Shown piece after piece: positions 4,781 to 32,633 of a stretch of 64,000 nucleotides of DNA. A program made the translations under genes and the position numbers. The stretch is taken from assembly GCA_002356515.1 (NCBI GenBank), contig AP017605.1:744001-808000 (forward strand), read 5' to 3'. This DNA comes from Mesorhizobium loti (GTDB taxonomy: Bacteria > Pseudomonadota > Alphaproteobacteria > Rhizobiales > Rhizobiaceae). The notes below the pieces were generated by a model, which searched no databases, was not told where the DNA came from, and saw nothing but the letters and a program-made list of their open reading frames with translations. Every line of letters starts with the position of its first letter. Positions within the stretch are counted from its first letter, which is position 1.

Positions 4781-5080
4781 ATGGCAAACGCGGCGTCAAT
4801 GCGCGAAGAGGCGGAAACCATTGCCGTGAAGGCGCTGGGCTTCGTCGCCTCCGATCCGGAGCTGTTGCCGCGCTTTCTGGCGATCACCGGAATAGAGGCG
4901 CATTCGATCCGCAAGGCCGCCGGCGAGCCGGGTTTCCTGGCCGGCGTGCTGCAGTTCATTCTCGCCCATGAGCCGACCCTGATGCGCTTTGCCGAGGAAA
5001 CCGGCACGCCGCCGGCCGCCGTCGGCAAGGCGTTGCGCGCCCTGCCGCTCGGCGACGACAACCATGAGCATTCCATATGA
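4781..5080 (+). CDS. DUF3572 family protein
   Basis: A 99-residue, mostly helical protein with no signal peptide or membrane segment. It matches my memory of the DUF3572 family of Hyphomicrobiales (pattern LGFVASDPELLPRFLAITG near the N-terminus). The ATG at 4781 follows GAAGG with a short spacer; a GTG just upstream is in frame. Its stop overlaps the start of the next gene by 4 bases (ATGA), so the two are translationally coupled. It is divergent from divK-pleD. Its function is unknown. Confidence 0.8.
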   Translation: MANAASMREEAETIAVKALGFVASDPELLPRFLAITGIEAHSIRKAAGEPGFLAGVLQFILAHEPTLMRFAEETGTPPAAVGKALRALPLGDDNHEHSI

Positions 5081-5730
5081 GCGATGATCCGGAGACCGCG
5101 CGGCAGATCGAGGAACTTTCGGCCGACGACCGGCCGCTGCTGGTGCTCGACGTCGATGACGTCGTGCTCGAATTCATCCGCCCCTTCCCGCATTTCCTGA
5201 AGTCGCGCGGCTACGGCCTGACGCTGGCCTCCTTCCGGCTGACCGGCAATATTGCCGAAACGGCCAGCGGCCGGCTGATCGAACAGCCCGAGGTCACGGC
5301 GCTGCTGGGCGACTTCTTCGACGCGCAAGCCGATTGGCAGAGCATCACCGACGGCGCCGCGGAAGCCCTGGCGAGGCTTGGCGACCGCGCGGAAATCATA
5401 TTGCTGACAGCCATGCCGCACCGGCATCGCGCCGTGCGCCGCGCCCATCTCGATGCGCTGGGGCTGAGCTATCCGCTGCTGACCACCGAGATGGCCAAGG
5501 GACCGGCAGTGGCCAGGCTGCGCGGCAATAACGGCAGGCCTGTGGTCTTCGTCGACGATCAGCCGCACAATCTGGCGTCGGTGCGGGAGAAGGTCACTGA
5601 TGCCAATCTTTTCCACCTGATGGCCGACAATTCGCTGCGCGCCTTCCTGCCGCCGGTCGCGGACGATGTCATCGTCGTCCAGGACTGGCACGAAGCCGGG
5701 CCGAAGATCGCGGGCGCGCTTGGGCTGTAG
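5077..5730 (+). CDS. HAD-superfamily hydrolase-like protein
   Basis: 217 residues. The region LLVLDVDDVVLEF (about 21-33) resembles HAD motif I (DxD), ILLTAMP (about 108-114) resembles motif II, and VVFVDDQPHN (about 153-162) resembles motif III/IV with the acidic pair. These motifs, in this order, suggest a phosphatase-type HAD fold acting on a small phosphorylated substrate, which cannot be identified from sequence. It overlaps the DUF3572 gene by 4 bases, suggesting a linked role. A palindromic repeat follows the stop and may end transcription. Confidence 0.75.
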   Translation: MSDDPETARQIEELSADDRPLLVLDVDDVVLEFIRPFPHFLKSRGYGLTLASFRLTGNIAETASGRLIEQPEVTALLGDFFDAQADWQSITDGAAEALARLGDRAEIILLTAMPHRHRAVRRAHLDALGLSYPLLTTEMAKGPAVARLRGNNGRPVVFVDDQPHNLASVREKVTDANLFHLMADNSLRAFLPPVADDVIVVQDWHEAGPKIAGALGL

Positions 5731-5732
5731 AG

Positions 5733-5798
5733 CAATTCCAGGAAAAGTGTGAAACGGTTTTCCCCGGAAAAGCGCGTAGCGCTTTCCCTTGGGAATTG
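5733..5798. repeat. Rhizobial intergenic palindromic repeat
   Basis: The element starts CAATTCC (5733) and ends in the inverted GGAATTG (5798). Inside are the AGGAAAAGTGTGAAACGG block typical of a repeat I know from many rhizobial genomes, and a hairpin GGAAAAGCGC-GTA-GCGCTTTCC (5766-5787). It sits between two convergent genes and could act as a bidirectional transcription end or RNA-stability element. Confidence 0.7.
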
Positions 5799-30102: not shown

Positions 30103-30930
30103 TCACGGCGGGTCCATTGCCTTGAGCGCGGCCGGAACCGGATAGCGGCTGCCGTCATAGCGCAGCCAGTAGGTCCGGCTCACCGACTTGCCGGGATGCG
30201 ACTGGCACTCGCCATCCTTGTCAGGAGCCGGCTCGTCGGTATCCTTCCGCTCGACCACGATGATGTCGTGGTAGCCGCGATGGATCGTCGGGCTCATCGC
30301 CAGGCTGACCTGGCTCGAATGAAAGGATCCCGCGCAATTGGTGTCGCCTTCGCCGCCAAAGCCGGCCACGGCAAGCCCGTCGAGCACCCCTTGCAGCGCA
30401 TTGCCGGCGAGGGCGTAGAGCCGCAGGTCGGTTTCGTTGAAGGGATTGGGCTGCGAATGATTGGCCATGTCGATGCGCAGGCCGAAGGCGGTGACACCGG
30501 GCGCCAGCCCATAACGGGCGGTATCGAATTCGATGCCGCGGATGGCGACGGCATCGTCGTTCATCAGCCTGGGCTGGAGCAGGCGCTGGCGTGGCTGCAG
30601 GGTCTTCCTGTCGACGACCAGAAGCTCGATGTCGCCAACATGCTGGCCGTCGACGGATTGGACGCTGTCGATCAGCGGCACAGCGACCAGCAGCAGATCG
30701 TCATGGGCAGGCCAGACCTTGCAGACCAGGCCCGGCATACCGTCCTGCGGGACGGCGAGCGGGATGCTGGTATGCGGCTCGAGCGTGAACGAGCGGCCGT
30801 CGGCGCTTTTTTGAACCGTGGGATAAGCCTGCCGCAACAGCGCAGCGGCATCGCCGCAATCGTCGGCAGAGGCCAGGGCGGGCGACAGGCCGGCGGCGGC
30901 GAGGCCGAGGGCAAGAAACAGTATTCGCAT
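30103..30930 (-). CDS. Secreted protein of unknown function
   Basis: 275 residues with a Sec signal peptide (MRILFLALGLAAAGLSPALASA). The mature domain has Cys at DDCGD, LVCKVW, NCAGS and ECQSH, consistent with two disulfides in the periplasm. The conserved-looking C-terminal stretch SRTYWLRYDGSRYPVPAALK could be a ligand-binding beta unit. No catalytic motif was recognised. The gene lies between tadD and the rearranged 3' end of the pilus operon, on the same strand, but the 311-base gap upstream argues for its own promoter. Confidence 0.7.
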   Translation of the reverse strand: MRILFLALGLAAAGLSPALASADDCGDAAALLRQAYPTVQKSADGRSFTLEPHTSIPLAVPQDGMPGLVCKVWPAHDDLLLVAVPLIDSVQSVDGQHVGDIELLVVDRKTLQPRQRLLQPRLMNDDAVAIRGIEFDTARYGLAPGVTAFGLRIDMANHSQPNPFNETDLRLYALAGNALQGVLDGLAVAGFGGEGDTNCAGSFHSSQVSLAMSPTIHRGYHDIIVVERKDTDEPAPDKDGECQSHPGKSVSRTYWLRYDGSRYPVPAALKAMDPP

Positions 30931-31241
30931 GGGGTTCTCATGTCGCAGGGCCGCGTCCGGGCAGGATGATGGTTGTCGGCCCCGGCTCTGGATTTGTCGA
31001 CTCGCATTTGCTGAGTTTGCAAGTATCCGTAAACCTCATCCAAGCGTTCGGGCGCGCCTGCTTCCCACTGGCAATGCCGAATTGCCGGCAATTCCCTTCA
31101 CCGTAATTCGGATTCTCAGTTGGAAAACATCCTGGCGCGATTGAAGTGCGTCAGAAGCGCCCTTGTCTGGAACAGAGACAGCATTGCTAAGACCTAAGAA
31201 CGGTTTTTTCTGCCAGCACCTGATGGCCGATTGCACACAGA
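30931..31241. other. Intergenic region, no gene seen
   Basis: This 311-base gap between the secreted-protein gene and the small membrane protein becomes AT-rich from about 31180. It contains a perfect 14-base palindrome AATTGCCGGCAATT (31080-31093) and a TTTTTT run at about 31204-31209. There is no credible coding frame. It probably holds the promoter of the secreted-protein gene and the transcript end of the small membrane protein. Confidence 0.5.
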
Positions 31242-31541
31242 TCACCGAGTGGGTTTGTCATTCTTTCTAAAATGAAAGAAATAATTTATAAAGACAAGCA
31301 TAACCATAAGTATTCCAGATATTATTGTGACATGTCTTAAAATAGATAAGACATACATCTGCTCAGAAGTTACATAAACAACAATACCCTTGACATTATA
31401 AGGGATAATTAGCCCCCTACCAGGATCAGTAACTCTTGGATACCCTACGTATGTATTGTCTAGTAGCGTATTTGCGGCAACGGCTGCTATCCAGGCAGTA
31501 GCGATAGCTACCACCAACGCAGATCTAAACCTTTTGAGCAT
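31242..31541 (-). CDS. Small two-TM membrane protein, possible immunity protein
   Basis: 99 residues with two hydrophobic helices (about 6-26, SALVVAIATAWIAAVAANT, and 68-90, RHVTIISGILMVMLVFINYF) and a loop of about 40 residues between them; the C-terminus is basic (FRKNDKPTR). Codon use is clearly AT-richer than in all neighbours, a sign of transfer. It starts 9 bases after the stop of a glycine-rich ORF without a start codon. A short Gly-rich protein followed directly by a small membrane protein is the layout of bacteriocin or toxin and immunity pairs. This is inference: no family is recognised. Confidence 0.6.
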   Translation of the reverse strand: MLKRFRSALVVAIATAWIAAVAANTLLDNTYVGYPRVTDPGRGLIIPYNVKGIVVYVTSEQMYVLSILRHVTIISGILMVMLVFINYFFHFRKNDKPTR

Positions 31542-31550
31542 GTTTCACCA

Positions 31551-31781
31551 TTATTCGAATGGATCGTAGACCGTCGTATAAGTTCCTGCTGCGGTAAATG
31601 ATGCGCCTGCTGCAGCCCCTACCGTTGCGCCGCCGCCCGTCACCGGGCCATGAGGACTATCTCCAGTAAAGTAGTCCATAGACCCACCGAGCCCAAGCCC
31701 GCCGTGACCCGCAATGTTGCCAAACCATCCTCGTAGGTCGCCAATTGTCTGGGCATTTGGAATTACGGTGACAGTGCACTT
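31551..31781 (-). pseudogene. Start-less small glycine-rich ORF (possible toxin or bacteriocin remnant)
   Basis: A 76-codon frame reading KCTVTVIPNAQTIGDLRG... then GNIAGHGGLGLGGS, GGGATVGAAAGASF and YTTVYDPFE before TAA. At its first codon the sequence is AAG. The aligned position in the neighbouring copy (32216-32218) is ATG, after GAGGG with a 4-base gap: a good start with a ribosome-binding site. So one base (31780) separates this frame from a normal small gene. The other copy keeps the start but is cut after seven codons. The Gly/Ala-rich tail recalls bacteriocin-like peptides and the tails of contact-dependent toxins. The true N-terminus may instead have been longer and lost. Confidence 0.5.
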
Positions 31782-32196
31782 TAATCCCTCTTTGCCCCGT
31801 ATAGACTCACTGCATGGCCGCCTCTGAACATCAGTGAAACTGGCCGTTCGTCATTTTGACGATGATTGGAATGACCGCGATCATCAGCACCACCGGCAGG
31901 ATGCACACCGTCACCGGTATCGACATCTTGGCCGGCAGGGCATGCGCTTTTTCCTCGGCCAGCGACATGCGCTTGTGGCGCATTTCGTCGGAGAAGACGC
32001 GCAGCGCGCCCGACAGGCTGGTGCCGAGTTCCTTCGACTGCTGCAACAGCGTGGCGAAGGAGCGGACCTCGTCCAGGCTGAGGCGCTCGGCGAGTGCCTT
32101 CAGCGCATCGTCGAGGCTGCGCCCGGCCCTCAGTTCCAGTGACACCAGCTGCAAATTCTGGCTGAGTGCTGGATAGGTCTTGGCGAGCTCCTTCGA
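31760..32196. repeat. 437-bp tandem duplication, copy 1 (tadC-distal)
   Basis: This copy begins GAATTACGGTGACAGTGCAC and spans the 3' end of tadC and about 75 bases downstream. It is repeated at 32197-32633 with about 22 base differences and one 1-base indel. In the shared tadC part all differences I compared are synonymous. Confidence 0.9.
31831..32196 (-). pseudogene. tadC: 3' fragment of tadC (duplicated, no start)
   Basis: Encodes the last 120 or so residues of TadC, from KELAKTYPALSQN to the C-terminal VKMTNGQFH, in one open frame with the same stop. The protein sequence matches the tail of the intact tadC at every residue I compared over 106 positions, although the DNA differs by about 5 percent. 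It has no own start or ribosome-binding site. The upstream junction joins seven codons of a small ORF (MCTVTVI) out of frame to this fragment. It cannot be a functional assembly protein on its own. Confidence 0.88.
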
Positions 32197-32633
32197 GAAT
32201 TACGGTGACAGTGCACATTAATCCCTCTTCGCCCCGTATAGACTCACCGCACGGCGCCTCTGAACATCAGTGAAACTGGCCGTTCGTCATTTTGACGATG
32301 ATCGGGATGACCGCGATCATCAGCACCACCGGCAGGATGCAGACCGTCACCGGTATCGACATCTTGGCCGGCAGGGCGTGCGCCTTTTCCTCGGCCAGCG
32401 ACATGCGCTTATGGCGCATTTCGTCGGAGAAGACGCGCAGCGCGCCCGACAGGCTGGTGCCGAGTTCCTTCGACTGCTGCAGCAGCGTGGCAAAGGAGCG
32501 GACCTCGTCCAGGCTGAGGCGCTCGGCGAGAGCCTTCAGCGCGTCGTCGAGGCTGCGCCCGGCCCGCAGTTCCAGCGACACCAGTTGCAGGTTCTGGCTG
32601 AGTGCCGGATAGGTCTTGGCAAGCTCCTTCGAG
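32197..32633. repeat. 437-bp tandem duplication, copy 2 (part of intact tadC)
   Basis: This is the upstream-side copy of the duplication. It includes the real 3' end of tadC (32267 onwards), its short downstream region and the first seven codons of the small ORF starting at 32218. The boundary with copy 1 lies at about 32197, where GAATTACGG recurs; microhomology at the joint is no more than two or three bases. Confidence 0.88.

Follow-up and report, generated by a model that had tools for sequence, protein, structure and literature searches.

The 64,000-nt window of Mesorhizobium loti analysed here (contig AP017605.1, positions 744,001 to 808,000) carries, directly behind the pilus assembly gene tadC, a small decayed remnant made of a startless Gly-rich frame and an intact membrane-protein gene. 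Sequence comparisons lead us to regard it, with moderate confidence, as the orphan, decapitated tip of a contact-delivered polymorphic toxin, likeliest of Rhs type, together with a retained membrane immunity gene, in a cassette that would be bracketed by the ends of a terminal inverted repeat (TIR)-flanked transposase element (a TIRtron) and inserted at a hotspot behind tadC. The remnant itself is real, and it probably derives from a toxin-immunity pair; what makes it interesting is its junction at the transposon end, a junction common to more complete and to equally decayed cassettes in related genomes.

Read along the minus strand, the locus consists of full-length tadC, a spacer with a 20-bp motif, a copy of the tadC 3' end, a second spacer with the motif, the Gly-rich frame, a 99-aa open reading frame (ORF), a stretch of flank and a 275-aa gene (Table 1). 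The repeat is larger than first described, amounting to ~436 bp and comprising the tadC 3' end and ~70 nt beyond it. The Gly-rich frame (minus strand, 31781-31551) spans 76 codons plus a stop and opens with AAG; nine bases (31550-31542) separate its stop from the ATG of the 99-aa ORF, whose product has two hydrophobic segments (residues 5-23 and 67-85) and whose GC content is 0.38 versus 0.633 for the window. A preliminary description of this DNA had reported the startless frame, the two-helix protein nine bases on and an ATG in the neighbouring copy of the repeat; all three are confirmed, the ATG standing at 32218-32216.

Junctions at a transposon end behind tadC

The 20-bp motif, GAATTACGGTGACAGTGCAC, is the end of a TIR-flanked element encoding a Y1 transposase of the type found with repetitive extragenic palindromes (REPs), the REP-associated tyrosine transposases (RAYTs). 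In the window's own genome (8.45 Mb) the motif occurs nine times exactly and 15 times with ≤2 mismatches, and its backward control does not occur at all. At C1:6052-6057 kb of that genome (locus L015), two Y1 transposase genes (225 aa, 96% identical) each lie between inverted motif copies, the flanked elements spanning 5022-5767 and 7287-8032 of L015; they thus have the flanking repeats expected of a RAYT or TIR-associated (TIRYT) element, and the repeats also occur elsewhere. The transposase domain was scored for one of the two genes (L015:5028-5702), which matched PF01797 with 40.4 bits (cut-off 23) and the REP-associated tyrosine transposase family NF047646 with 81.2 bits, barely above the cut-off of 80. 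Across the genus, sampled as 146 Mesorhizobium genomes with the window's own genome as G000, the motif (19 nt, ≤1 mismatch) was present in 65 genomes and the control in none of the 146.

The motif is not a REP in the strict sense: the 20-mer lacks a GT(A/G)G head, and the fold of the 31-nt end is no more stable than that of shuffled sequences (z 0.32). The TIR type (TIRYT) fits it better. The inner part of the tadC spacer looks, by eye, like the leader of the L015 transposase gene, so that the tadC site seems to hold the truncated end of such a transposase element. Of 132 unique motif sites (≤1 mismatch), 114 have A directly ahead of GTGCAC, 11 have G, 4 have C and 3 have T; conservation drops within two bases beyond the outer end of the motif. 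Stop codons facing the motif within 30 nt were found at 15 of 117 sites versus 5 of 117 for a control window, a difference too weak to lean on. Inverted motif pairs ~80-270 bp apart, with no transposase gene between them, stand at L087, L089 and L081 and look like miniature non-autonomous copies, and the exact 20-mer is present in 18 stretches of the viral_contigs set (IMG/VR; L163-L180).

The gene tadC was found in 112 of the 146 genomes (E ≤1e-60), and downstream DNA was examined over 1.5 kb in 111 of them and over ~0.86 kb, to the contig end, in G018. The site is empty in 28 genomes, where the DCGDA codons of the next native gene stand 138-233 nt past the tadC stop; they stand 526-1408 nt past it in G135, G123, G000 and G007, and the DCGDA string was not found in the examined downstream stretch of the other 80. 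Behind the tadC stop of five genomes out of the 112 lies the motif, with 0 mismatches in G000, G123, G017 and G007 and two in G019 (reversed-motif control, 0), and the cargo beyond it differs from genome to genome. That of G007 includes an Rhs-associated core (TIGR03696, 71.6 bits, cut-off 32.5) and a tip matching colicin-E5 RNase (PF12106, 42.2 bits, cut-off 25, residues 139-204), followed by a 117-aa ORF. In G017 the motif is followed by a 177-codon open frame and then by a native-flank copy that includes the beginning of the next gene; behind this stand a second motif (1 mismatch) and a cut tip. This second tip is the G007 protein cut at residue 157, inside the colicin-E5 match and at the motif end, with the small ORF behind it intact, and 879 bp are 100% identical between the two genomes. 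The G019 cargo consists of two other open frames.

Unrelated sequence starts at once behind the motif in all seven cases (two each in G000 and G017, one each in G123, G007 and G019), and wherever a longer relative allowed the junction to be placed, namely for the G123 tip, the second G017 tip and the G000 tadC tail, it lies ~0-3 nt from the motif end. A frame, CTVTVI, shared at the tip junctions of G000, G123, G007 and L015 was left unused, since the second tip of G017 uses another frame. G135 has no motif, and its tadC gap is filled by a different 99-aa ORF with two hydrophobic stretches (L146:1397-1696).

The tadC tail ahead of the second motif copy is foreign. The two tadC 3' copies are 95.4% identical, and all 17 differences in 366 bases are synonymous (0 non-synonymous), where a non-coding copy left to drift at this site would be expected to show about 72% non-synonymous changes (P about 4e-10). 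A tree of 31 sequences from 30 genomes with tadC loci, with G000 entered twice, joins the tail to the tadC of G017 (bootstrap 91); the full gene groups with that of G007 (94). Because every change is synonymous and the tail groups with the G017 gene, it is a piece that diverged inside a working tadC elsewhere and came with or beside the cassette. The imported 3' end (31831-32196) also marks recombination between Mesorhizobium lineages at the Tad pilus operon.

These observations suggest a history in which the tip would once have been part of a longer toxin, most likely of Rhs type, and in which a foreign stretch running from the tadC end through the motif and the tip to the immunity gene would have entered by recombination, joined on one side by homology in the flank and on the other at the resident motif end. 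The toxin part would have been lost from the motif end outward and the immunity gene kept. If the transposase cut at the motif end, the meeting of the junctions at that point would be accounted for; homology-facilitated illegitimate recombination may supply one of the two sides. At the hotspot as a whole, the transposon end stays in place and the cargo beyond it varies between genomes.

An origin of the array by ordinary homology-facilitated illegitimate recombination throughout, with the transposon end as a passive scar, is a serious possibility, if short of a probable one; it concerns how the cassette arose and is compatible with its being a toxin-immunity pair. The process was proposed for the immunity arrays of the Vibrio cholerae type VI secretion system (T6SS), as set out in the accessible text of PMC5361080, and it predicts just the pattern of an imported tadC tail with a native far flank; the two native-flank copies in G017 also agree with it. 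However, the change to unrelated sequence right behind the motif in seven of seven cases, with placeable junctions within a few nucleotides of its end, is not what a passive scar would lead one to expect, and cassettes elsewhere in the genome are bordered likewise.

Table 1. Features of the putative toxin-immunity cassette and its surroundings in the window.
Feature	Position	Strand	Remarks
tadC, full length, T2SSF-family pilus assembly gene, 323 aa	32267..33238	-	PF00482 66.7 bits, cut-off 25.2
tadC 3' spacer ending in motif copy 1	32197..32266	-	motif at 32197-32216 reads GTGCACTGTCACCGTAATTC on the minus strand
366-bp copy of tadC 3' end, imported allele	31831..32196	-	
Second copy of tadC 3' spacer	31780..31830	-	
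Motif copy 2; the Gly-rich frame joins at its outer end	31760..31779	-	
Putative C-terminal toxin-tip remnant, Gly-rich (PNAQTIGD...)	31551..31759	-	open in frame with the motif (CTVTVI), without start codon
99-aa protein with two transmembrane segments, probable immunity gene, intact	31242..31541	-	GC 0.38
Possible right border: 12 nt identical to the outer transposon end (GAATTACGGTGA), oriented towards the cassette	31098..31109	-	
Next native gene (275 aa), far flank of the hotspot	30103..30930	-	

The Gly-rich frame and its membrane partner

The Gly-rich frame is present in three of the 146 genomes, G000, G123 and G128, and in each the membrane gene follows directly, as a small partner gene follows the C-terminal tip in orphan Rhs modules. 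In G123 the pair stands behind tadC as it does in the window; ~20 frame residues are left (SPHGPV to AGASF), in frame and fused to the motif, which the frame joins 33 or 34 residues further in than in G000, and the membrane protein is intact (94 aa, 63% identical to that of the window). In G128 the pair stands elsewhere in the genome, behind a Crp-type regulator gene (PF13545, 57.2 bits), with a frame 60% identical to the window's at the protein level and, 11 nt behind the frame stop, an ORF of 86 aa related to the membrane protein (27-36% by alignment). The membrane-protein profile matched 11 of the 146 genomes: the three that bear the frame, five with distant relatives, and three (G059, G097 and G014) that were dropped, the matches lying inside open frames of 713-734 aa (only the G059 locus was inspected). 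The pairing, which the preliminary description had proposed to look for, therefore holds for the close relatives found and fails for the distant ones.

Wider searches extended this family little. Frame matches at E ≤0.01 in the class (5 of 385 genomes) and the phylum (9 of 398) each included the own genome, and the other 13 places, on inspection, look unrelated and were rejected. The genome_contigs set gave a single locus for the frame, that of G128, and no close relative of the membrane protein; viral_contigs held no relative of the frame, and plasmids no match to either the frame or the membrane protein. Phages gave no DNA match, the query being a 142-bp piece of the membrane gene alone, and a protein search for relatives of the frame returned 10 candidates, none scored. 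In a set of 5.8 billion proteins the membrane-protein family has seven entries at E ≤0.01, one of them 98% identical to the window protein. Pfam and NCBIfam contain no family above cut-off for either the Gly-rich frame or the 99-aa membrane protein.

This obscurity of the frame, with its mere three occurrences in the genus sample and the distant membrane-gene relatives that stand alone, would suit a reading in which the frame either arose by chance or is an unrelated coding sequence in decay, the membrane gene is free-standing, and their pairing reflects hitch-hiking at a recombination-prone site. We think this unlikely: the frames of G000 and G128 share their 60% protein identity at two unrelated places, and at both the membrane gene follows closely behind the stop, after 9 and 11 nt.

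More improbable still is a small stand-alone bacteriocin with its immunity protein, in which the toxin has lost its start codon only. The compact Gly-rich frame directly ahead of a gene for two transmembrane segments, and the recurrence of the pair in three genomes, are what such a system would show. Membrane immunity proteins encoded behind the toxin gene are also familiar from pore-forming colicins, a placement that the window pair repeats with no sequence relation to them in Pfam or NCBIfam. However, the frame that was said to lack only its start codon has lost none, because its AAG belongs to the 20-bp transposon end and is the commonest triplet there (61 of 132 sites), the ATG of the neighbouring copy being the exception; it is the whole N-terminal part of the protein that is missing. 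The frame runs startless into the transposon end, without the start codon of its own that a bacteriocin with an immunity gene would have; its earliest ATG, GTG or TTG is codon 35, which starts a 42-aa ORF (31679-31551). In addition, the frame of G123 meets the motif at a different residue, and the cargo of G007 at the same site is a piece of Rhs. The idea of a decayed toxin-immunity pair thus survives as a conserved pairing in all three genomes with the frame, and not as the loss of a start codon alone. The alternative first offered beside it, that the frame once ended a longer, lost Rhs-like protein, is a better fit than a small bacteriocin: at the same site in G007, the sequence passes from the transposon end into an Rhs core with a colicin-E5 tip.

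That the tadC tail was simply duplicated in tandem at this place, for which the head-to-tail repeat and one breakpoint at the motif might speak, is highly improbable; this reading was rejected on the purely synonymous substitution pattern and on the grouping of the tail with another species' tadC.

The motif and Rhs cores across genomes

Beside a gene for a GspD-type secretin (PF00263, 168.1 bits), the own genome has three cassettes, each set between motifs that turn their outer ends towards it. One consists of a 179-aa ORF, another of an Rhs core and a 151-aa ORF, and the third of a 250-aa ORF; the two transposase elements lie between the cassettes. The Rhs core scores 72.4 bits (TIGR03696) and is accompanied by a GIY-YIG match below cut-off (20.1, cut-off 22.6). 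Provided that the 12-nt match at 31109-31098 is its right border, the window cassette is arranged in the same way; the 12-mer occurs three times in the 64 kb, the other two occurrences being the motif copies. Rhs tip and immunity arrays with a transposase stand beside a GspD-type secretin gene both at L015 (C1:6052134-6056901) and at L082 in G053.

Rhs cores are present in 36 of the 146 genomes. Co-location with the motif was counted in G000-G085 only, with G086 onward omitted; this part of the sample has 44 Rhs places, 28 of them in 17 genomes with the motif. Sixteen of the 28, in 12 genomes, lie ≤2.5 kb from a motif, where 0.05 would be expected; the 2.5-kb limit was set after the distances were known and the genomes, being related, are not independent samples, for which reasons the P value is not read as a probability. 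At L014 (own genome, C1:1543726-1545508), genes for large phage-like proteins precede arrays in which putative tips (no Pfam match) stand with SUKH immunity genes and the motif lies at the borders, and L077, L087 and L089 hold arrays that are similar by eye to these phage-borne tip/immunity-like arrays, again with the motif at their borders.

Several observations weigh against the derivation of the pair from an Rhs-type toxin cut at the transposon end. The Gly-rich frame showed no direct similarity to an Rhs protein or a known toxin family in family, protein, genome and viral-contig searches, and its predicted structure, made with no alignment, is uninformative (mean pLDDT, the predicted local distance difference test, 46.7). 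The pair in G128 has no motif in the 10 kb examined (the best match has 6 mismatches), and in five of the 146 genomes (G074, G112, G026, G134 and G002; E 1e-17 to 2e-4) distant relatives of the membrane gene have no Gly-rich frame seen ahead of them. No motif lies near 12 of the 28 Rhs places. Nor is the motif bound to toxins: of 79 motif clusters, 14 lie within 5 kb of an Rhs core, and some stand among ordinary-looking genes (L081). Since few motif clusters are near Rhs cores and others border phage-borne cassettes or ordinary-looking genes, the element is not a toxin-only device. Among the relatives found, no Rhs core attached to this tip was seen, the core at the same site in G007 bearing another tip, and the own genome yielded no full-length Rhs protein to deliver these tips, its one Rhs-core place lying in a 339-aa frame.

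Relation to known systems and significance

The comparisons that follow refer to the accessible parts of the papers cited. A tip fragment without its N-terminal part, followed by an immunity gene, is the arrangement of orphan rhs-CT/cdiA-CT (C-terminal) modules, in or near which transposable elements are sometimes found (PMC3150448). Unlike those modules, the orphan in the window stands behind a pilus gene rather than a full-length toxin gene and is cut at a defined transposon end. The cassette also recalls the orphan immunity arrays of the Vibrio cholerae T6SS, in which old effectors were lost or displaced, immunity genes were kept and genes of other strains were stacked (PMC5361080), whereas the Mesorhizobium junctions share one 20-bp transposon end.

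The element itself resembles TIRtrons (TIRYT) and REPtrons (RAYT), with a Y1 transposase gene between short inverted repeats that also occur singly or in pairs (PMC3733652, PMC6006769, PMC2817692), and its core, GGTGACAG, is by eye one base off the reported TIR consensus GGGGWSAS (PMC3733652). No typical sign of mobility like that of insertion sequences was found in PMC2817692. In contrast to the TIRtrons and REPtrons described in these sources, the repeats here border toxin-immunity cassettes; the words toxin and Rhs are absent from the text of PMC3733652. The literature searched, whose coverage leaves out most subscription papers and all preprints, contained no paper naming both RAYT and Rhs, nor both REP-associated tyrosine transposase and polymorphic toxin; TIRYT is named in two papers.

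As far as their accessible text goes, the cited papers explain tip swapping and the build-up of orphan immunity arrays by recombination, homologous or illegitimate, that has no defined site. In the genomes compared here, several unrelated cassettes have their junction at one and the same 20-bp transposon end, and the Y1 transposase that the element itself encodes is the obvious candidate for making it. As for the remnant in the window, the decapitated toxin is probably silent, and the retained immunity gene may still protect its host against relatives with the complete toxin. More broadly, and as a doubtful proposal, the ends of TIR-flanked HUH (Y1) elements might be the exchange points of a polymorphic-toxin cassette system in Mesorhizobium, in which the transposase would cut the 20-bp end and cassettes would be added, removed or decapitated, both at rhs loci and at landing sites outside them, tadC among these. 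If this were true, strains would collect immunity genes while disarming the toxins, by means of a system that would be integron-like for toxin cassettes, but with a Y1 transposase.
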